Part shown: in pieces, positions 15,614 to 29,339 of the stretch | Layout: each line of letters begins with the position of its first letter | Numbering within the stretch: position 1 is the stretch's first letter | Origin: Stutzerimonas frequens | GTDB lineage: Bacteria; Pseudomonadota; Gammaproteobacteria; Pseudomonadales; Pseudomonadaceae | Reading direction: 5' to 3' | Assembly (NCBI RefSeq): GCF_024448335.1 | Contig: NZ_JAMOHM010000001.1 | Span: forward strand, 310,001-374,000 | Length of the DNA: 64,000 nt | Notes under the pieces: generated by a model | Database searches by the model: none | Told to the model about the DNA's origin: nothing | The model's input: only the letters and a program-made list of their open reading frames with translations | Program-made: the position numbers and the translations under genes

Positions 15614-16459
15614 ATGAACGCGCCTTCCCGTCTGCCCGCCGGTATCGCAACGGCTACGCCAACGCCCAGCGGTGCCAGCCAGCGCTATCACTATCAGCCG
15701 ATCGACGAGGCCGAACGGTGCGATGTCGACCTCGCCGAGGAATGCGCGCTGGCGATCGCCTATAACGGGCTCAATCAGGCGGTGATGATGATTTCTCCGG
15801 CGGACCTCGAGGATTTCGTCGTCGGCTTCAGCCTGGCGAACGGCATCGTCGAGTCGCCGAACGACATCTACGACATTCATCTGCACGGCCAGGGCAGCGC
15901 CCGGCGGGCGGAAGTCGAGATATCCAGCCGCAGCTTCTGGCAACTCAAGCGACAGCGCCGCCAGCTCCCCGGCAACAGCAGTTGCGGCCTGTGTGGCGTC
16001 GAAGCGCTGGAACAGGCCCTGCCGCAGCTGCCGATCATGCCTCCAGCGGCGCTGCCGCCGGCACACTGGCTGCACGACCTGCGCGAGCGCATCTCCGCTT
16101 ATCAACCGCTGGGACGCGGCTGCGGCGCGGTACATGCGGCCCTGTTCATGGACAACCAGGGGACGATACGTCTGGGGCGTGAAGATATCGGTCGGCACAA
16201 CGCGCTGGACAAGCTGATCGGTGCCATGGCGCGCGAAGGATTGGAAGCTGCCGGCGGCCTGGCTATCGTCACCAGTCGCTGCAGCCTGGAGCTGGTGCAC
16301 AAGGTTCAGCGCGCAGGCATCCCGACCCTGGTCAGCCTGTCCTCCCCCACTGGTCTCGCGACACGCTGGGCGCAGCGACACAACCTGAACCTGATTCATC
16401 TGCCGCATCGCAGCCCGCCGCGCGTCTACAGCCCGGCGGCAAGCGCCGCCCGCGATTGA
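15614..16459 (+). CDS. fdhD: Formate dehydrogenase accessory sulfurtransferase FdhD
   Basis: Encodes 281 residues. FdhD transfers sulfur from IscS to the molybdenum cofactor, which formate dehydrogenases need for activity. The essential cysteine pair is in NSSCGLCGVEAL (about residue 120), and RGCGAVHAALF and GREDIGRHNALDKLIG are typical family segments. No formate dehydrogenase structural genes are in the window, so the client enzymes lie elsewhere. The ribosome site before the ATG is weak. Confidence 0.95.
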   Translation: MNAPSRLPAGIATATPTPSGASQRYHYQPIDEAERCDVDLAEECALAIAYNGLNQAVMMISPADLEDFVVGFSLANGIVESPNDIYDIHLHGQGSARRAEVEISSRSFWQLKRQRRQLPGNSSCGLCGVEALEQALPQLPIMPPAALPPAHWLHDLRERISAYQPLGRGCGAVHAALFMDNQGTIRLGREDIGRHNALDKLIGAMAREGLEAAGGLAIVTSRCSLELVHKVQRAGIPTLVSLSSPTGLATRWAQRHNLNLIHLPHRSPPRVYSPAASAARD

Positions 16460-16630
16460 GTTGCGGACGCCGCACAAGCGGCACAAGACCCCCGCCCGCA
16501 AAGCAAGTTCCGACCGTAAATCAAAGAGTTAGCAAACAGGAACTGCTTCACGCATTTCATCGGAAAGCCCTTGCCGGAAGCGAAGCGGCACGTGAGGATC
16601 GCGGCGCAATTCCACATACGGGATCACACC

Positions 16631-17092
16631 ATGAAGTACGCCTCGATTTTCCTGTTGTCCACCAGCCTGCTCAGCGCAGCCGCCTTTGCCGGCAGCAACA
16701 CCGAAGCCGCCGTTGGCGGTGCCCTCGGTGGCGCGCTCGGTTCCGTGGTGGGTGAGCATCTGGGTGGCTCGACTGGCGCGACCATCGGCGCTGGCGTCGG
16801 CGGTGCGGCAGGTGGCATGGTCGGCGCCGACAAGCGCAGCCGCACCGAAGCGGCCATCGGCGGTGGCCTTGGTGCGGCCGGCGGCAACGTCATCGGCCAG
16901 CAGGTCGGCGGCAGCACCGGCGGTCTGATCGGTGCAGCCGTCGGCGGCGGTGCCGGCGGCGCGATCGGCAACGCCTACGGCGACGATGATGACGACCGCT
17001 ACCGAGGTGATCGCCGTTACCGCGACCGCCACTACTATGGCCCGCCCGGCAAGGCCAAGGGGCATTACAAGCATCGTCACAAACACCATTGA
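16631..17092 (+). CDS. Glycine-zipper exported protein (YMGG-like)
   Basis: A 153-residue protein with a cleavable signal peptide (MKYASIFLLSTSLLSAAAFA, 1-20). Residues 26-115 are repeated glycine zippers such as GGALGGALGSVVGEHLGG and GGLGAAGGNVIGQQVGG, in which a Gly every fourth residue allows tight helix packing in membranes. The tail is first Asp-rich (DDDDD), then basic and His/Tyr-rich (about 120-153). The function is unknown; relatives are envelope proteins. A strong terminator follows. Confidence 0.85.
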   Translation: MKYASIFLLSTSLLSAAAFAGSNTEAAVGGALGGALGSVVGEHLGGSTGATIGAGVGGAAGGMVGADKRSRTEAAIGGGLGAAGGNVIGQQVGGSTGGLIGAAVGGGAGGAIGNAYGDDDDDRYRGDRRYRDRHYYGPPGKAKGHYKHRHKHH

Positions 17093-22164: not shown

Positions 22165-23082
22165 ATGTTTCGGATTCACCAAGTGAATATCTACAACTTC
22201 GACCTCAACCTGCTTCGCGTGCTGGACGCCCTGCTGCGTGAGCGCAACGTCTCGCGTGCCGCCGAGCGCCTGTCCCTCAGCCAGCCGGCGGTCAGCAACG
22301 CTCTGGCCCGCTTGCGCGAACTGCTCGACGACCCGCTGCTGGTGCGCGTCGGCCGGGCCATGCAACCGACGCCGCGAGCCCTGGCGCTGGAGGCGCCTAT
22401 CCGTCATGCGCTGCAGCAGATCGAACACAGCCTGATCGCCGGCGAAGCCTTCGATCCGGCGTGCAGCCAGCAGCGTTTTCGCATCGCCGTGACCGATTAT
22501 GTGGAGCTGATCTGCATGCCGGCGCTGATGCGGCGCCTGGCCGAGCGGGCGCCGGGCATTCGGCTGGCGATCCAGCACCTGACACCCAGCCTGCCCACCG
22601 AGGCGCTGGACAATGGCGAAGTCGACCTGGTGCTGGGACGCTTCCTCGACGTGCCATCGCGCTTCCATGTGCGCCATTGGGCCAGCGAAACGCTGCAGGT
22701 GGCGGTGCGCCGCGGCCATCCACTGGTGACGGACGGCCTCGACCTGCAAGCCTTCCTGGGCCTGCGCCATCTCTGGGTGCATGGCGGTCAGACCCGCGGC
22801 ATGGTCGATCAGTGGCTGGAGGGCCAAGGCCTAGCCCGCGAGGTCGTCTACACCACGCCGAACTACCTGCAAGCCGCCCATATCGTCGCCAGCAGCGACC
22901 TCGCGGCGGTGCTGCCGACGCAGCTGGCCCGCCATTTCGCCGACCTGCTGCCGCTGCGACTGTTCGACCTGCCGTTCGAGCTCGGCCCCTTCGAGCTGGA
23001 CATCGTCAGCGTGGCGCAACGGCAGAATGATGCGGCGCTGCAATGGCTGATCGAACAGATCGACGGCGTAGCGCCAGGCTAA
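22165..23082 (+). CDS. LysR-family transcriptional regulator
   Basis: Encodes about 305 residues. The N-terminal winged helix-turn-helix reads FDLNLLRVLDALLRERNVSRAAERLS, then QPAVSNALARLRELLDDPLLVRVGR, and a LysR substrate-binding domain follows. The start is uncertain: TTG 22147, ATG 22165 or GTG 22183 are in frame, and I chose the ATG. It is divergently transcribed from the hydroxyacyl-CoA / acyl-CoA dehydrogenase operon across 83 bp, the usual layout for a LysR regulator controlling the neighbouring operon. The inducer is unknown, plausibly an acyl-CoA or fatty acid. Confidence 0.93.
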   Translation: MFRIHQVNIYNFDLNLLRVLDALLRERNVSRAAERLSLSQPAVSNALARLRELLDDPLLVRVGRAMQPTPRALALEAPIRHALQQIEHSLIAGEAFDPACSQQRFRIAVTDYVELICMPALMRRLAERAPGIRLAIQHLTPSLPTEALDNGEVDLVLGRFLDVPSRFHVRHWASETLQVAVRRGHPLVTDGLDLQAFLGLRHLWVHGGQTRGMVDQWLEGQGLAREVVYTTPNYLQAAHIVASSDLAAVLPTQLARHFADLLPLRLFDLPFELGPFELDIVSVAQRQNDAALQWLIEQIDGVAPG

Positions 23083-23279
23083 GCGGCGAATCACGCGCGA
23101 CGATTCGTGCACCCCTGTCCTATGCCTATTTGCTAGTATTCCCCAGCGTTTTCGTCGGGTTTCCACCCCAAACGCAGATGACTGAGCCGCGTTCGCGGAA
23201 CATCGCCGCACAGCGGACATCTATTCCTGTTACGCGCCATGGTGAACATGGACGACCAAGCAAATCTGGAGCTACACCT

Positions 23280-24128
23280 ATGGCGGCCCTGCTGCAACGT
23301 ACCCTGGACACCATCACCCGCAACCAAGCCGAGCTGCTGAGCAGCTGGAAATCCGATCTGCAGAGCCTTGGCGGCTACCACAACGTCAAGCCGGAAGAGC
23401 TGACCCAGCAGACCATCGACCTGATCCGCCAACTCATCAGCGCAACGGCGGACGGCTCTGCCGACGTCAACGGCCCGACCTGGGACGGCATGCGCCTTTA
23501 TCTGGAAAAGCTGTCGCGCAGCCGTGCGCTGCTGGGAATGGATTCGCAGCAGACCGCCGGCTTCCTCTTCGCCATCAAGCGTCCGCTGATGACCCTGCTG
23601 CAGAGCGAATATGCCAATGAACCGGCGGTGTTCGCCGAGCAACTGTGGGCCGTGTCCGAGCTGATCGACAGCCTGGGTCTATACACCGTGCGCACCTTCC
23701 AGAAATCCCGCGAAGAGGTGATCAAGCGCCAGCAGGAAGAGCTGCTGGAGCTGTCGACCCCGGTGGTCAAGCTGTGGGACGGCGTACTTGCCCTGCCGAT
23801 GATCGGCACCCTCGACTCACAGCGCACACAGGTCGTGATGGAATCGCTGCTGCAACGCATCGTCGACACCGGTTCGGAAATCGCCATCATCGACATCACC
23901 GGCGTGCCCACCGTCGACACCCTCGTCGCCCAGCACCTGCTGAAGACGGTCACCGCCATCCGTCTGATGGGCGCCGACTGCATCATCAGCGGCGTACGTC
24001 CGCAGATCGCGCAGACCATCGTCCACCTCGGGCTCGACCTGCAGGGCATCGTCACCAAGGCCAGCCTGGCCGACGCCCTCGCCCTGGCCCTGCGCCGCTC
24101 CGGTCTCACCGTCACCAGGACTGCCTGA
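23280..24128 (+). CDS. rsbR: Stressosome scaffold protein RsbR (RsbRD-type N-terminus + STAS)
   Basis: A 282-residue protein: an all-helical N-terminal sensory domain (about 1-150, RsbRD-like) and a C-terminal STAS domain (about 160-275). In the STAS domain DITGVPTVDTLVAQHLL and ISGVRPQIAQTIVHLGLDL match the RsbR family. Thr211/Thr214 and Thr246 fall where the RsbT-phosphorylated threonines of Bacillus RsbR are expected. RsbR and RsbS build the large cytoplasmic stressosome that holds RsbT until stress. The ATG at 23280 has GGAG upstream. First gene of a six-gene operon with overlapping junctions. The 197 bp before it contain no other gene. Confidence 0.93.
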   Translation: MAALLQRTLDTITRNQAELLSSWKSDLQSLGGYHNVKPEELTQQTIDLIRQLISATADGSADVNGPTWDGMRLYLEKLSRSRALLGMDSQQTAGFLFAIKRPLMTLLQSEYANEPAVFAEQLWAVSELIDSLGLYTVRTFQKSREEVIKRQQEELLELSTPVVKLWDGVLALPMIGTLDSQRTQVVMESLLQRIVDTGSEIAIIDITGVPTVDTLVAQHLLKTVTAIRLMGADCIISGVRPQIAQTIVHLGLDLQGIVTKASLADALALALRRSGLTVTRTA

Positions 24129-24490
24129 TGGACCGAATCCCTATTTTGCGGATGGGCGAGTTCCTGCTCGTCACCATCCAGGTCGACATGCATGACCAGC
24201 TGGCCCTGACCCTGCAGGACGACCTGGCCGAGCGCATCAGCGCAACTTCGGCAAAGGCCGTGCTGATCGACATCTCCGCGCTGGACATGGTCGACTCCTT
24301 CATCGGCCGCATGATCGCCAATATCTCCGGCCTGTCGCGAATCATGGATGCCGAAACCGTGGTGGTGGGCATGCAGCCCGCCGTGGCCATCACCCTGGTC
24401 GAGCTTGGTCTCGAACTGCCCGGCGTGAGCACCGCCCTGAATGTCGAGCGTGGCATGCAGTTGCTGCGCGCCCGCGTGGCTGCGCAATGA
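24128..24490 (+). CDS. rsbS: Stressosome STAS protein RsbS
   Basis: A 120-residue single STAS-domain protein. The sequence IDISALDMVDSFIGRMIANISGL contains Ser57 in the DSFI motif, the residue phosphorylated by RsbT in Bacillus RsbS. It starts 1 bp inside the rsbR stop (TGATG), so translation is coupled. In the stressosome RsbS co-assembles with RsbR and anchors RsbT; phosphorylation releases RsbT. Confidence 0.94.
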   Translation: MDRIPILRMGEFLLVTIQVDMHDQLALTLQDDLAERISATSAKAVLIDISALDMVDSFIGRMIANISGLSRIMDAETVVVGMQPAVAITLVELGLELPGVSTALNVERGMQLLRARVAAQ

Positions 24491-24891
24491 TCGTGCGCAG
24501 CAGCGGCAGCCAGCCGGTGCGCCTCGAACAGGATGTCGTGCTGGCCCGGCAGACCGTGCGCAAGCTGACCCAGGAATGTGCCATGCGCCTGATCGACCAG
24601 ACCAAGCTGGTCACTGCGGTCAGCGAGCTGGCGCGCAACACCGTGGTCTACGGCGGCGGTGGCGACATGGACTGGCAGCTGATCGAGGACGGCACGCGGG
24701 TCGGCGTGCGCCTGACCTTCCGCGACGAAGGGCCGGGCATCGCCGACATCAAGCTGGCCATGACCGACGGCTGGACGTCCGGCAGCGGACTCGGCCTGGG
24801 GCTGACCGGCGCCAAGCGGCTGGTGGACGAGTTCGAACTCGACAGCACGGTCGGCGTGGGCACCCGAATCACCATCACGCGGTGGACATGA
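24487..24891 (+). CDS. rsbT: Serine/threonine switch kinase RsbT
   Basis: A 134-residue GHKL-type protein kinase. The N box VSELARNTVVYGGGG (about 43-57), DEGPGIADI and the glycine lid GSGLGLGLTGAKRLVDEF are intact, so it should be active. In Bacillus it phosphorylates RsbS and RsbR and then activates the phosphatase RsbU. No RsbU, RsbV, RsbW or sigma-B homologue is nearby, so its output here must be different. It overlaps rsbS by 4 bp and the next gene by 4 bp. Confidence 0.94.
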   Translation: MIVRSSGSQPVRLEQDVVLARQTVRKLTQECAMRLIDQTKLVTAVSELARNTVVYGGGGDMDWQLIEDGTRVGVRLTFRDEGPGIADIKLAMTDGWTSGSGLGLGLTGAKRLVDEFELDSTVGVGTRITITRWT

Positions 24892-25898
24892 ACGTTCCGG
24901 GCAGCGTCACTCAGGTCCTGCTGATCGAAGACAACAGCCAGATCGGCCATGCCCGTCGGGTCGCCCAGCGGCTGGCCGAACAGCAGGGCTTCGATGTCAC
25001 CGATGCAGGACGCGTCGCCTTGCTCGCGACCGAACTGGCTAGCAACCTGCTCAAGCACGCCGGACGCGGCGAACTGCACCTGCGCGTAATTCCTGGACGA
25101 GAGGGGCGCGGCGTCGAAATCATCGCGGTCGACCGCGGACCGGGCTTCGACCTCGATCAATGCCTGACCGACGGCTTTTCCACCCGCGGCACCCAGGGCA
25201 TCGGACTCGGCGCGCTGGCGCGTCAGGCCCAGGTGTTCGACGCCTACTCCAATGCCCGCGGCTCGGTGGTGCTGGCGCAGCTGTTTCCTCGCGGCGTGCA
25301 GCCGCCGCTATGGCGCTACGGCGTCAGCCAGCATCCCTACCCAGGTGAACAGGTTTGCGGCGACACCTGGCAGCTGGCCTTCGATGGGCAGCGTTGCAGT
25401 GCCCTGGTCATCGACGGCATCGGCCATGGCGAGCTTGCCCGTCAGGCCGCCCAAGCAGGCGCCGCGGCGTTTGCAGAAGCCCCGATGGACTCCCCCTTCG
25501 CCCTGTTCAGCAACATGCACCAGGCAATGAACGGCACTCGTGGCGGCGCCGCAGCCATCGCTCATTTTGACGGCGAGCGGCAGACGCTGAATTTCGCCGG
25601 GGTTGGCAATATCGGCGCCAGCCTGATCGGTAGCGGGGGCTCGCGTGGCCTGGCCTCGCACCCAGGCATCGTCGGTGTGCGCTTTCGCAAGGCGCACGTC
25701 TTCGACTACCCGTTGGGCGAGGCGCGACTACTGGTGCTCTTCAGCGATGGTCTGCAAACCCGCTGGAATCTGCGCGACTATCCAGGGCTGGTTCATCGAC
25801 ACCCAGCCATCATCGCCGCACTGCTGCATCGGGACTTCTGTCGCGGTCGCGACGACGTGACCGTGCTGGCACTCAATCTGGAGGCTCCTCGTGGCTGA
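24888..25898 (+). CDS. ATPase / SpoIIE-type phosphatase fusion, RsbX-like
   Basis: A 336-residue two-domain protein. Residues about 1-135 form a GHKL ATPase like RsbT/RsbW (LATELASNLLKHAG, DRGPGFD, GTQGIGLGALAR). Residues about 145-336 form a PP2C-like SpoIIE phosphatase (GDTW, VIDGIGHGELARQAA, FSDGLQTRWN, GRDDVTVLAL) with metal-binding aspartates present. By position it corresponds to RsbX, which dephosphorylates RsbR/RsbS and resets the stressosome. The fused kinase-like domain suggests it may act on both sides of the switch; this is inference. Confidence 0.9.
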   Translation: MNVPGSVTQVLLIEDNSQIGHARRVAQRLAEQQGFDVTDAGRVALLATELASNLLKHAGRGELHLRVIPGREGRGVEIIAVDRGPGFDLDQCLTDGFSTRGTQGIGLGALARQAQVFDAYSNARGSVVLAQLFPRGVQPPLWRYGVSQHPYPGEQVCGDTWQLAFDGQRCSALVIDGIGHGELARQAAQAGAAAFAEAPMDSPFALFSNMHQAMNGTRGGAAAIAHFDGERQTLNFAGVGNIGASLIGSGGSRGLASHPGIVGVRFRKAHVFDYPLGEARLLVLFSDGLQTRWNLRDYPGLVHRHPAIIAALLHRDFCRGRDDVTVLALNLEAPRG

Positions 25899-26769
25899 TC
25901 CGACATCCCCCGGGTCCGGGTTCGGCGACGCCGGCCTCATCGAGCAGCTGCGCCGCGATAACGACTCGCTGCGCGCCGAGCTCGAAGAAACCAATCAAGG
26001 TGTCCTGGCGCTGTATGCCGAGCTGGACACCCAGGCCGAGCAACTACGCCAGGCCTCGGACCTGAAAAGCCGCTTTCTGTCGTACATGAGTCACGAGTTC
26101 CGCACGCCGCTGGGCTCGATTCTCAGCATCACACGCCTGCTCAGCGACGAACTGGACGGCCCGTTAAGCCCGGAACAGCACAAGCAGGTACGTTTCGTCA
26201 GCTCGGCGGCCAATGAGCTGAGCGAGATGGTCGATGACCTGCTCGATCTGGCGAAGATCGAAGCAGGCCGTGTCAGCATTTCCCCGGCCTGGTTCGACAT
26301 GCTCGACCTGTTCTCCGCGCTGCGCGGCATGTTCCGGCCGATCGTCGAAGGCTCTCAGGTGGATCTCATCTTCGAAGAGCCGCAGGGGCTGCCGCGCTTC
26401 TACACCGACGACAAAAAGCTCGCGCAGATCCTGCGCAACTTCATTTCCAACGCGCTGAAGTTCACCCCGCACGGCGAGGTTCGGGTCTCGGCACGGATGG
26501 AAAATCCGCAGCAGGTACGGTTCGCCGTTACCGATACCGGCATCGGCATCGCCGCCGAGCTGCATGATCGCCTGTTCGAGGACTTCTCCCAGGTCGATTC
26601 GCCGCTGCAGAAGCGCCTGCGTGGCACGGGTCTGGGGCTTGCCCTGTGCAAGCGCTTCGCCGCCTTGCTCGGCGGGCGGGTCGGGCTGGAGAGCGAACCG
26701 GGCAAGGGCTCGGAGTTCTATGTGATCATCCCGTTCAGCATCGAGGCGGAGGGAAGCGATGGAGCGTGA
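25891..26769 (+). CDS. Cytoplasmic sensor histidine kinase of the stressosome operon
   Basis: A 292-residue kinase from a GTG start, overlapping the previous gene by 8 bp. An N-terminal coiled coil (about 12-55) leads straight into HisKA with His68 in SYMSHEFRTPLGS, then a HATPase domain (LRNFISNALKFTPHGEVRV, DTGIGI, GTGLGLALCKRFA). There is no transmembrane or sensory domain, so it presumably receives its signal from a protein partner such as the stressosome. The 11-bp overlap with the next gene implies coupled synthesis with the hybrid kinase, whose receivers are its likely targets. Confidence 0.93.
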   Translation: MADPTSPGSGFGDAGLIEQLRRDNDSLRAELEETNQGVLALYAELDTQAEQLRQASDLKSRFLSYMSHEFRTPLGSILSITRLLSDELDGPLSPEQHKQVRFVSSAANELSEMVDDLLDLAKIEAGRVSISPAWFDMLDLFSALRGMFRPIVEGSQVDLIFEEPQGLPRFYTDDKKLAQILRNFISNALKFTPHGEVRVSARMENPQQVRFAVTDTGIGIAAELHDRLFEDFSQVDSPLQKRLRGTGLGLALCKRFAALLGGRVGLESEPGKGSEFYVIIPFSIEAEGSDGA

Positions 26770-28708
26770 AAGCCGCCTGTTGATCGTCGATGACAACGCC
26801 ACTACGCGTTACGCGATGCGTCGGGTCCTGGAGCGCCACGGCTATCAGGTGCTGGAGGCCGGCACCGGTAGCGAAGGGCTGGCGCTGCTCGCCAGCGCCA
26901 TGCCGGATGCCTTGGTGCTCGATGTCAACCTGCCGGACATCAGCGGTTTCGACATCGCGCGTCAGCTGCGCGCCGATCCGAATACCGCACTGCTGCCGCT
27001 GATTCACGTGTCCGCGGCATCCATCGAGACCGGCGACATCATCACCGGTCTCGACGCCGGCGGCGACGCCTACCTGATCCACCCGGTCGACCCCGACGTG
27101 CTGCTGGCGACGCTGCGCACCCTGCTGCGGGTACGCGATACCGAGCGCGCGCTGCGTGACAGCGAGGCGCGCTTTCGCGAGATATTCATTCACGTCGCGG
27201 CGCCCATCGCGGTACTCGACGCCCAGCTGCAGCTGCACGAGTGCAATCACGCATTCGAACTGCTGATCGGCGGCGCCAGCCCGGCTTCGCCTCTGTTGCA
27301 AAGCGTCACCGCCGGGCAGGAGGCGATTCTCGCCGAGCTGCGCACGCATCTGCAGGCCGGCGAACGCTGGCATACACCACTGCAAATGCAGGTCAACGGC
27401 GAGACCCGCGAGACCGAGTGGCAGATCTCGCCGTACCGCGCACAGGGGCTGGGCCTGGTGTTCGTCGAGGACGTCACCGAGCAGCGTCACCGTGAACGCG
27501 CCCAGCGGCAGGAGATCGCGACCACCACCAGTCAGCTGGCCCATGAGGTGGCCGAGCGCGCGCGTACCGAAGAGCAGCTGCTGCAGGCACAGAAGATGGA
27601 TGCCCTGGGCAAGCTGACCGGTGGCATCGCCCATGACTTCAACAACCTGCTCACCGGCATCATCACCGGCATCGAGCTGATGAAACAGCGGATCATCGAA
27701 GGCCGCGGCGACAGCGTGCTGCGCTTCGCCGACGCCGCACTGAGTTCGGCGCGCAGTGCCGCGTCGCTGACCAATCGCCTGCTGGCGTTTGCCCGCAAGC
27801 AGCCGCTGGACGCCCGCGCGCTGGACATCAACGAGCGCATCCGCTCGCTGGAGGATTTGTTGCGGCGCACCATCGGCGAGCGCATCACCCTGAGCTTCGA
27901 CTTCACCGACGGGCCGGCCGTGGCGCGGGTGGATGTCAGCCAGTTCGAGAGCGCGCTGCTCAACCTAGTGATCAATGCCCGCGACGCCCTGCCCGAAGGC
28001 GGCCACATCGGCATCCGGACCTTTTCCACCGACGCTAGCCAGCACCCTGAGCTGGCCGCCGGCCGTTACATCGGCCTGTGCGTCAGCGACGATGGCACGG
28101 GCATCGACCCCGCCGTGCTGGACAAGGTGTTCGACCCCTTTTTCACCACCAAACCCCAAGGCCGCGGTACCGGTCTGGGGCTGTCGAGCATCTATGGTTT
28201 CACCCTGCAGTCGGGCGGCGACGCGCACATTCGCAGCACCCTGGGCGTCGGTACGGACGTGACGCTGCTGCTGCCGGCCGCCGACGGCGAAACGAGTCTG
28301 GCACCCAGCGCGGCGCCGGATGATTCGGCGCGTCTGGCCGGCCATGAGCACGTGCTGGTGGTGGAAGACATGCCCAGCGTGCGCATGCTGATCGCCGAGA
28401 CCCTCATCGAGGCGGGTTATCGCTGTAGCCAGGCCGGCGATGTGGAAACCGCCCAGGCACTGCTGGAGGCCGATCCGTCCATCGACCTGCTGCTGACCGA
28501 CGTTGGCCTGCCGCGCCTGTCCGGGCAGCAGCTGGCCGAATGGGCGCGGCGCTCGCGGCCAACGCTACCGGTGGTGCTGATGACCGGTTATGCGGAAAAA
28601 GCATCCAGTCGCGAGGGATTCGTCGATGAACGCATGGAGCTGGTACTCAAGCCGTTCAAAGCCGCGGACCTGCTGGTCAAGATCCGCGGCCTGCTCGACG
28701 AGGCCTGA
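26759..28708 (+). CDS. Hybrid histidine kinase, REC-PAS-HisKA-HATPase-REC
   Basis: A 649-residue protein. The N-terminal receiver (about 5-120) has phospho-acceptor Asp55 in LVLDVNLPDISG; a PAS domain follows (about 135-250); HisKA carries His292 in [13 protein letters not shown]; the HATPase shows [16 protein letters not shown] and GTGLGLSSIYG; a C-terminal receiver has Asp581 in LLTDVGLPRLSG. All catalytic and acceptor residues look intact. Last gene of the stressosome operon. There is no DNA-binding or GGDEF output, so a further acceptor is needed, and none is adjacent. Confidence 0.93.
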   Translation: MERESRLLIVDDNATTRYAMRRVLERHGYQVLEAGTGSEGLALLASAMPDALVLDVNLPDISGFDIARQLRADPNTALLPLIHVSAASIETGDIITGLDAGGDAYLIHPVDPDVLLATLRTLLRVRDTERALRDSEARFREIFIHVAAPIAVLDAQLQLHECNHAFELLIGGASPASPLLQSVTAGQEAILAELRTHLQAGERWHTPLQMQVNGETRETEWQISPYRAQGLGLVFVEDVTEQRHRERAQRQEIATTTSQLAHEVAERARTEEQLLQAQKMDALGKLTGGIAHDFNNLLTGIITGIELMKQRIIEGRGDSVLRFADAALSSARSAASLTNRLLAFARKQPLDARALDINERIRSLEDLLRRTIGERITLSFDFTDGPAVARVDVSQFESALLNLVINARDALPEGGHIGIRTFSTDASQHPELAAGRYIGLCVSDDGTGIDPAVLDKVFDPFFTTKPQGRGTGLGLSSIYGFTLQSGGDAHIRSTLGVGTDVTLLLPAADGETSLAPSAAPDDSARLAGHEHVLVVEDMPSVRMLIAETLIEAGYRCSQAGDVETAQALLEADPSIDLLLTDVGLPRLSGQQLAEWARRSRPTLPVVLMTGYAEKASSREGFVDERMELVLKPFKAADLLVKIRGLLDEA

Positions 28709-28781: not shown

Positions 28782-28807
28782 AAAAAACCCGCCGTAGCGG
28801 GTTTTTT
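28782..28807. terminator. Bidirectional Rho-independent terminator
   Basis: Symmetric hairpin AAAAAACCCGC - CGTA - GCGGGTTTTTT. On the minus strand it ends the first Rsm-like sRNA with a run of U; on the plus strand it has T6 as well and lies 74 bp after the stressosome operon, so it probably ends both. Confidence 0.85.
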
Positions 28808-28890
28808 CTGACCATTCCGAATCCTTCCGGTTGCCGTCCTGGCGATGGTCGATCCTCCTTGATCCTGAGCGCGTCCTGCGCTTCAGAGAC
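28782..28890 (-). ncRNA. Rsm-like (RsmX/Y/Z family) regulatory sRNA, copy 1
   Basis: Minus-strand transcript of about 109 nt, read from about 28890 to the terminator at 28782-28807. It contains eight GGA motifs (CAGGACG, CAGGATC, AAGGAGG, AGGATCG, CAGGACGG, CGGAAGG, AGGATTC, CGGAATG). One lies in the loop of a perfect 5-bp hairpin AGCGC-AGGAC-GCGCT, the preferred RsmA/CsrA target. A -10-like TAATCT lies at 28897-28902 and a GacA-box-like site at 28946-28963. In pseudomonads such sRNAs titrate RsmA under GacS/GacA control. Ends are estimated. Confidence 0.8.
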
Positions 28891-28945
28891 GGGCAAAGAT
28901 TAAGCTGCGCCGTGGCGCAGACAAAGCGCCAATGGCTGAGCTGCG

Positions 28946-28963
28946 TGTAAGCCTTTCGCTACG
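28946..28963 (-). promoter_or_regulatory. GacA-box-like upstream site, copy 1
   Basis: TGTAAGCCTTTCGCTACG: the left half-site equals the GacA consensus half TGTAAG exactly, and the right half matches CTTACA at 3 of 6 positions with the consensus 6-base spacing. It is centred about 65 bp upstream of the inferred sRNA start, the same spacing as in copy 2. Confidence 0.6.
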
Positions 28964-29003
28964 GCGAGCGCTGCAGTCGATGCAGTCGAAGCAGCACGGA
29001 AAA

Positions 29004-29111
29004 GCAAAAACCCGCCGAGGCGGGTTTTTCTGACCGTTCCGAATTCCCTTCGAGTGCCGTCCTGGCGATGGTCGATCTTCCTGATCCTGAGCGCTTCCTG
29101 CGCTTCAGAGT
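29004..29111 (-). ncRNA. Rsm-like (RsmX/Y/Z family) regulatory sRNA, copy 2
   Basis: Minus-strand transcript of about 108 nt ending in the terminator at 29006-29029. Six GGA motifs are present, with plus-strand TCC at 29038, 29045, 29060, 29079, 29085 and 29096. The 5' hairpin AGCGC-AGGAA-GCGCT is extended by CTG/CAG around a bulged A and presents AGGA in its loop, the classic RsmA/CsrA-binding element. -10-like TAATCT at 29118-29123, GacA-box-like site at 29168-29185. The remaining bases to the next gene (29190-29339) show only a short GCCCGC/GCGGGT palindrome without a U tail. Confidence 0.8.
29006..29029 (-). terminator. Rho-independent terminator of sRNA copy 2
   Basis: Hairpin AAAAACCCGC - CGAG - GCGGGTTTTT, giving a GC stem followed by a U run on the minus strand, directly after the GGA-rich region. 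Confidence 0.85.
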
Positions 29112-29167
29112 GGGTGTAGATTAATTACATGCCGTGATCGGCAAAAGGGTCGAACGCCGCAGCCTCT

Positions 29168-29185
29168 TGTAAGCCTTTTGCTATA
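29168..29185 (-). promoter_or_regulatory. GacA-box-like upstream site, copy 2
   Basis: TGTAAGCCTTTTGCTATA: left half-site TGTAAG exact, right half 3 of 6 against CTTACA, 6-base spacer. Centred about 66 bp upstream of the inferred start of sRNA copy 2. Confidence 0.6.
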
Positions 29186-29339
29186 GCGGTAGAAAGCGGA
29201 GAACTTTCAGACCCCAGCCGCGCCTCGCAGTCGCCCTGCAAGGCCCGGCATAGAGCCCGCCATAGCGGGTGACGCAGCGGATCGACGATGCATCGTGGCG
29301 ACGAGCTGCAGCACACGCAACACGTCGCCAGCAGCCGTA

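Follow-up and report, generated by a model that had tools for sequence, protein, structure and literature searches.

In the Rsm family, GacA activates the genes of small RNAs, and these RNAs titrate RsmA. Tandem pairs of rsmX genes of this family are tabulated for Pseudomonas brassicacearum NFM421, P. fluorescens F113, P. stutzeri A1501 (printed as "A150") and three P. syringae strains (Table 1 of PMC7911923; Lalaouna et al. 2021). According to that paper, a northern blot and a lacZ fusion show rsmX-2 of P. brassicacearum to depend on GacA; its RNA is absent from a gacA mutant, and its overexpression restores the gacA-mutant phenotypes (PMC7911923). RsmY and RsmZ (RF00195 and RF00166) resemble rsmX in being GGA-rich RsmA decoys under GacA control, and form separate families. 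For P. stutzeri A1501, Kd values of 55 and 320 nM are given for the binding of RsmA by RsmY and RsmZ, respectively, and the rsmY rsmZ double mutant equals the gacA mutant for biofilm, which led the authors to infer that biofilm formation involves no other Rsm RNAs (PMC8249394). An rsmX/Y/Z network in A1501 is also mentioned in PMC12459779.

This study concerns two minus-strand units in a 64,000-nucleotide stretch of Stutzerimonas frequens DNA, which as a whole is referred to as the window. The initial annotation regarded a tandem pair of Rsm-like RNAs beside a stressosome operon as undescribed. Tandem rsmX genes are already in print, P. stutzeri A1501 included (PMC7911923, Table 1); the observation itself is correct, and the pair is an ordinary, already described arrangement. 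In a literature search outside which most subscription papers lay, no paper was found that joins rsmX with the stressosome or rsmX with Stutzerimonas, and the adjacency itself may be unremarked in print. The rsmX-1/rsmX-2 genes of P. brassicacearum NFM421 stand in tandem as they do here, with a nearly identical upstream activating sequence (UAS) in both copies, and carry 6 and 6 GGA motifs as against 6 and 8 in the window (PMC7911923). The rsmX-3/rsmX-4 genes of P. syringae are likewise in tandem, in a species with five rsmX-like genes as against two here (PMC7911923).

Identity, promoters and RNA bodies of the two units

Both units matched the Rfam rsmX model RF02144 over its full length (positions 1-114 of 114) and above its curated cut-off of 56 bits (Table 1), with E values in the 64-kb window of 3.1e-16 for rsmX-2 and 1.6e-13 for rsmX-1. 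At E 0.001, these two units were the only rsmX matches in the whole 4.38-Mb genome. The RsmY model scored them at 42.5 and 39.7 bits, under its cut-off of 57, and neither was among the matches of the RsmZ model in the genome search. The covariance search thus bore out the RsmX/Y/Z-type architecture that the initial annotation had proposed, and specified it as rsmX. The proposed pair of minus-strand units was likewise confirmed, with lengths set by the model match; the RNAs start at about 28891 and 29113, that is, 222 bp apart. The RNA parts are 87% identical, and the 92-bp promoter parts 59%. By their sequence, the units classify as paralogous rsmX genes of Stutzerimonas.

Table 1. Coordinates of the rsmX pair, its control elements and the neighbouring operon in the window
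Feature	Position	Strand	Basis
rsmX-1 (upstream copy)	29005..29113	-	109 nt, 6 GGA; Rfam RF02144, 81.8 bits
rsmX-2 (downstream copy)	28782..28891	-	110 nt, 8 GGA; Rfam RF02144, 93.7 bits
GacA-type UAS of rsmX-1, TATAGCAAAAGGCTTACA	29168..29185	-	16/18 to the UAS in PMC7911923
GacA-type UAS of rsmX-2, CGTAGCGAAAGGCTTACA	28946..28963	-	15/18 to the UAS in PMC7911923
Putative -10 element TAATCT of rsmX-1	29118..29123	-	position before the RNA
Putative -10 element TAATCT of rsmX-2	28897..28902	-	position before the RNA
Intrinsic terminator of rsmX-1	29006..29029	-	terminator scan: 10 pairs, T tail
Terminator of rsmX-2	28782..28807	-	sequence and predicted fold
Stressosome-type operon	23043..28708	+	Pfam RsbRD_N, STAS, HATPase_c, SpoIIE, HisKA, Response_reg

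The GacA-box-like sites that had been noted upstream of both units were confirmed. The half-site TGTAAG (plus strand; CTTACA on the sRNA strand) is present at both copies, at 28946-28951 and 29168-29173. The full palindrome TGTAAG-N6-CTTACA, which we take to be the GacA-type consensus, is degenerate in its distal half, with 9 of 12 positions matching at each rsmX copy. Because two other places in the window also score 9/12, the palindrome score was dropped as evidence, and the published UAS, an 18-bp sequence printed for P. brassicacearum (PMC7911923), was used instead. In both copies the proximal half of this UAS is exact and the distal half degenerate; the next best match in the window reaches 13/18. 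Genome-wide, the UAS pattern TATAGCRAAAGGCTTACA occurs with up to two mismatches at three places, namely both rsmX promoters and a site 59 bases upstream of the RsmY match; rsmX-1 carries the only exact match of the genome and rsmX-2 two mismatches. Two more places appear at three mismatches, and the reversed control pattern gave 3 matches in all. Among 81 same-genus copies (79 from other genomes plus the two of the window), 79 have a UAS of at least 13/18 that begins 70-74 bp before the RNA start, a level reached by 33 of 5000 random 120-bp windows; the exceptions are a copy in genome G014 (11/18) and the middle one of three copies in genome G022 (9/18). The previously suggested -10 element TAATCT was found before both RNAs, and lies within the last 16 bases 5' of the RNA in 74 of the 81 copies. 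A sigma-70 scan returned no promoter at either rsmX copy, a result that is compatible with an activator-dependent promoter, yet lends no support to one.

The remaining parts named in the initial annotation, the GGA motifs, the 5' hairpins with an AGGA loop and the terminators, were all located. In 5000 base-composition shuffles, the eight GGA of rsmX-2 were reached by 2 and the six of rsmX-1 by 121, so that the latter count alone is weak evidence. Several GGA lie in loops of the predicted fold in both rsmX-1 and rsmX-2, and the 5' hairpins read AGCGC-AGGAC-GCGCT and AGCGC-AGGAA-GCGCT. Four GGA motifs are invariant across an alignment of 63 copies; the other four in rsmX-2 of the window are retained in 5, 18, 55 and 32 copies. 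RNAalifold predicted 30 pairs, four of them with two-sided changes that keep the pair, and covariation contributes little to the energy (-1.14 of -34.53 kcal/mol). The terminator scan of a 1-kb stretch yielded three sites of the kind found at rsmX-1, compared with 1.1 expected from shuffles; the rsmX-2 terminator was not among the sites listed. Given its A-stem-T symmetry, the rsmX-2 terminator could also end the convergent hybrid-kinase operon. Elsewhere in the window, at 16433-16731 on the minus strand, there is a match to the Pseudomonas sRNA P34 (RF02405) of 60.6 bits against a cut-off of 44.

Distribution and descent of rsmX in the genus

Among 56 same-genus genomes, rsmX was matched at E 0.001 in 49 and over the cut-off in 46, in a search whose stricter filters lose weak matches. 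A laxer re-search of eight genomes (the seven matchless ones and G024, which has a weak match) gave none over the cut-off; its matches at E up to 1 are uninformative, because 7 of 14 control genomes also match. In 10 of the 56 genomes no rsmX exceeds the cut-off, so that the gene is not indispensable. At least two rsmX stand at one locus in 30 of the 56, the genome of the window included, with the starts of neighbouring copies from 222 bp (window) up to about 2.7 kb apart. The surroundings are partly shared: 35 of 48 examined rsmX loci contain a LysR-type gene plus one or more of three further genes that lie near the pair in the window (histidine-phosphatase-like, HPF and MFS). Between neighbouring copies, an opposite-strand cold-shock protein gene (for example, L042:7276-7560) occupies 22 of 32 gaps, the window's own being counted; it is absent from the short gaps of the window, G029 and G011, and from some longer ones.

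A tree was built of the 81 copies with their promoters; it is unrooted, and the sequences are short and the bootstrap unsettled. In this tree, a single set (29 rows, support 97/95) unites 28 of the 30 downstream copies, rsmX-2 of the window among them, with one middle copy. In G002 and G013, the downstream copy groups with the upstream copy of its own locus (100/91), a sign of a separate duplication. Judged from the tree, the tandem duplication is shared by descent among most downstream copies of the genus and was then kept. That much of the genus retains the pair in the form of two distinct paralogues suggests some function.

One alternative is that one copy is an unexpressed, decaying duplicate, most likely rsmX-2 with its diverged promoter. 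The branch of rsmX-2 in the tree of 81 copies is long (0.37), and among the promoters of the other copies compared, none is more than 72% similar to its own of 92 bp. However, its UAS still matches at 15 of 18 positions and its -10 element is intact; downstream copies of other genomes match its RNA body at up to 96% identity, the four invariant GGA are all retained in it, and of the two units it scores higher with the covariance model. Moreover, of the 46 genomes in which rsmX exceeds the cut-off, 30 keep at least two copies at one locus. Decay of one copy is thus considered unlikely, and two functional paralogues remain the preferred reading. Gene conversion of rsmX-2 was also considered and rejected; when promoter and RNA parts were compared separately, a downstream-type RNA body joined to a promoter without a close match gave no clear mosaic.

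Variants of the arrangement occur in other genomes. G011 (L043, 7001-7564) has three rsmX in a row, with starts 227-228 bp apart, and its first and third copies are 99% identical in the RNA part. The middle copy of G022 (L054:9339-9448) is a third rsmX of 63 bits on a very long branch, without a UAS, and is possibly a decaying duplicate. In another genus of the family, rsmX arrays with a spacing of about 228 bp were observed, comprising five copies in G131 (C2:98627-99657), five in G117 (C1:1082522-1083551) and four in tandem in G163 (C1:2734674-2735470). In the same genus, G138, G145 and G157 have 8, 10 and 10 rsmX-like matches, respectively, which are mostly dispersed and in many cases below the cut-off.

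The neighbouring stressosome-type operon

The genes next to the pair encode an RsbR-like protein with RsbRD_N and STAS domains, an RsbS-like STAS protein, an RsbT-like ATPase, a protein combining an ATPase with a SpoIIE phosphatase, a histidine kinase and a hybrid kinase with two receiver domains; their close order suggests a single operon. The layout resembles the RsbRSTX and two-component locus of Vibrio vulnificus as described in PMC10014275. The stressosome-type cluster is common in Pseudomonas, with a conserved gene order, and adjoins rsmX in only part of Stutzerimonas.

The adjacency reported in the initial annotation is real, as the Pfam domains of the operon indicate; its standing as a notable biological arrangement was not supported by relatives. 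RsbS was found at E 1e-20 in 44 of the 56 same-genus genomes (in four of the 44 at only 66-68% identity), but the operon adjoins rsmX in 16, that is, at 15 of the 48 examined loci and in the window. Half of the 30 tandem rsmX pairs (15) have the operon nearby, and 15 lack it within flanks of about 7 kb; in 13 of the latter, RsbS lies at a distance of 0.7 Mb or more or on a different contig, and in two none was matched. In G047, the operon adjoins a single rsmX. Among 80 named hybrid-kinase loci, rsmX was detected in one, that of S. chloritidismutans AW-1, with a profile built from this genus that divergent copies may escape and with several loci cut by contig ends; RsbR, RsbS and RsbT stand beside the hybrid kinase in 79 of the 80. 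The hybrid kinase is 90% identical in S. chloritidismutans, 92% in S. stutzeri BAL361 and 61-66% in the other 78 loci, values that assign the window to Stutzerimonas.

Stressosome and rsmX are both parts of stress or stationary-phase signalling. The pair and the operon might therefore be read as one module, in which rsmX expression responds to stressosome output, or the operon is released from RsmA repression by RsmX, and their position as convergent neighbours here and in 15 other genomes of the genus would agree with this. However, the operon is on the plus strand and the rsmX units on the minus strand, so that the two converge and share no promoter, and the conserved linkage between rsmX and RsbRST that would mark a stressosome-coupled regulatory RNA was not found. 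Synteny in the three sets of genomes and loci described above led to the rejection of stressosome coupling as the main reading, and a common module is judged highly improbable. Because RsbS is present in 44 of 56 genomes but the operon lies beside rsmX in 16, and rsmX was detected at one of 80 hybrid-kinase loci, the juxtaposition looks incidental, an accident of lineage. The operon is most likely unrelated in function to the rsmX pair. It is also very doubtful that the adjacency gave rise to a working link among the S. stutzeri-like members of the genus, with the stressosome (kinase and hybrid kinase) and Gac/Rsm sharing control and the diverged rsmX-2 promoter taking a new input. This case indicates that relatives should be checked before a functional link is read into a striking neighbour.

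Proposed action and comparison with P. stutzeri A1501

The weakest alternative, a chance GGA-rich and terminator-bearing intergenic sequence without RNA genes, draws on the only mildly unusual GGA count of rsmX-1, but it is refuted by the two full-length RF02144 matches and by the conservation of rsmX in same-genus genomes, and its probability is negligible. Other parts of the Gac/Rsm system are present in the genome: one RsmY match (82.9 bits, RF00195) and one RsmZ match (94.7 bits, RF00166) over their cut-offs, one CsrA-family match (Pfam) and one GacA-family match over the curated cut-off. A second CsrA protein of the RsmN type is reported for the P. stutzeri branch (PMC7366521), and such a protein could be missed by the Pfam model.

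By analogy with relatives, phosphorylated GacA would switch on each rsmX from its own UAS, giving a transcript of about 110 nt that would stop at its own terminator. The GGA motifs, several of them in hairpin loops, would then bind and titrate RsmA, and RsmA-repressed mRNAs would be freed. The evidence in hand comprises family membership, the UAS, the conserved GGA core, the structure, and the RsmY, RsmZ, CsrA-family and GacA-family genes of the genome. Relatives suggest that the two genes of the window are transcribed, depend on GacA and bind RsmA, and the pair likely acts in the usual way, as GacA-activated RsmA decoys.

In sum, the locus is very probably a functional pair of paralogous rsmX genes, maintained after a tandem duplication, with an unrelated stressosome operon as its neighbour. 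The closest described counterpart is in A1501, where the biofilm model of PMC8249394 is built on RsmY and RsmZ and omits the rsmX pair printed for that strain. Given the phenotype of the A1501 double mutant, the contribution of the rsmX pair to biofilm may be small, or its expression weak. A1501 belongs to the same species group as the strain studied here and, like it, has two tandem rsmX, of 109 and 107 nt (PMC7911923, Table 1). According to the values of that table, the two A1501 genes start 239 bp apart by the printed coordinates and are 81.5% identical, as against 222 bp and 87% in the window.
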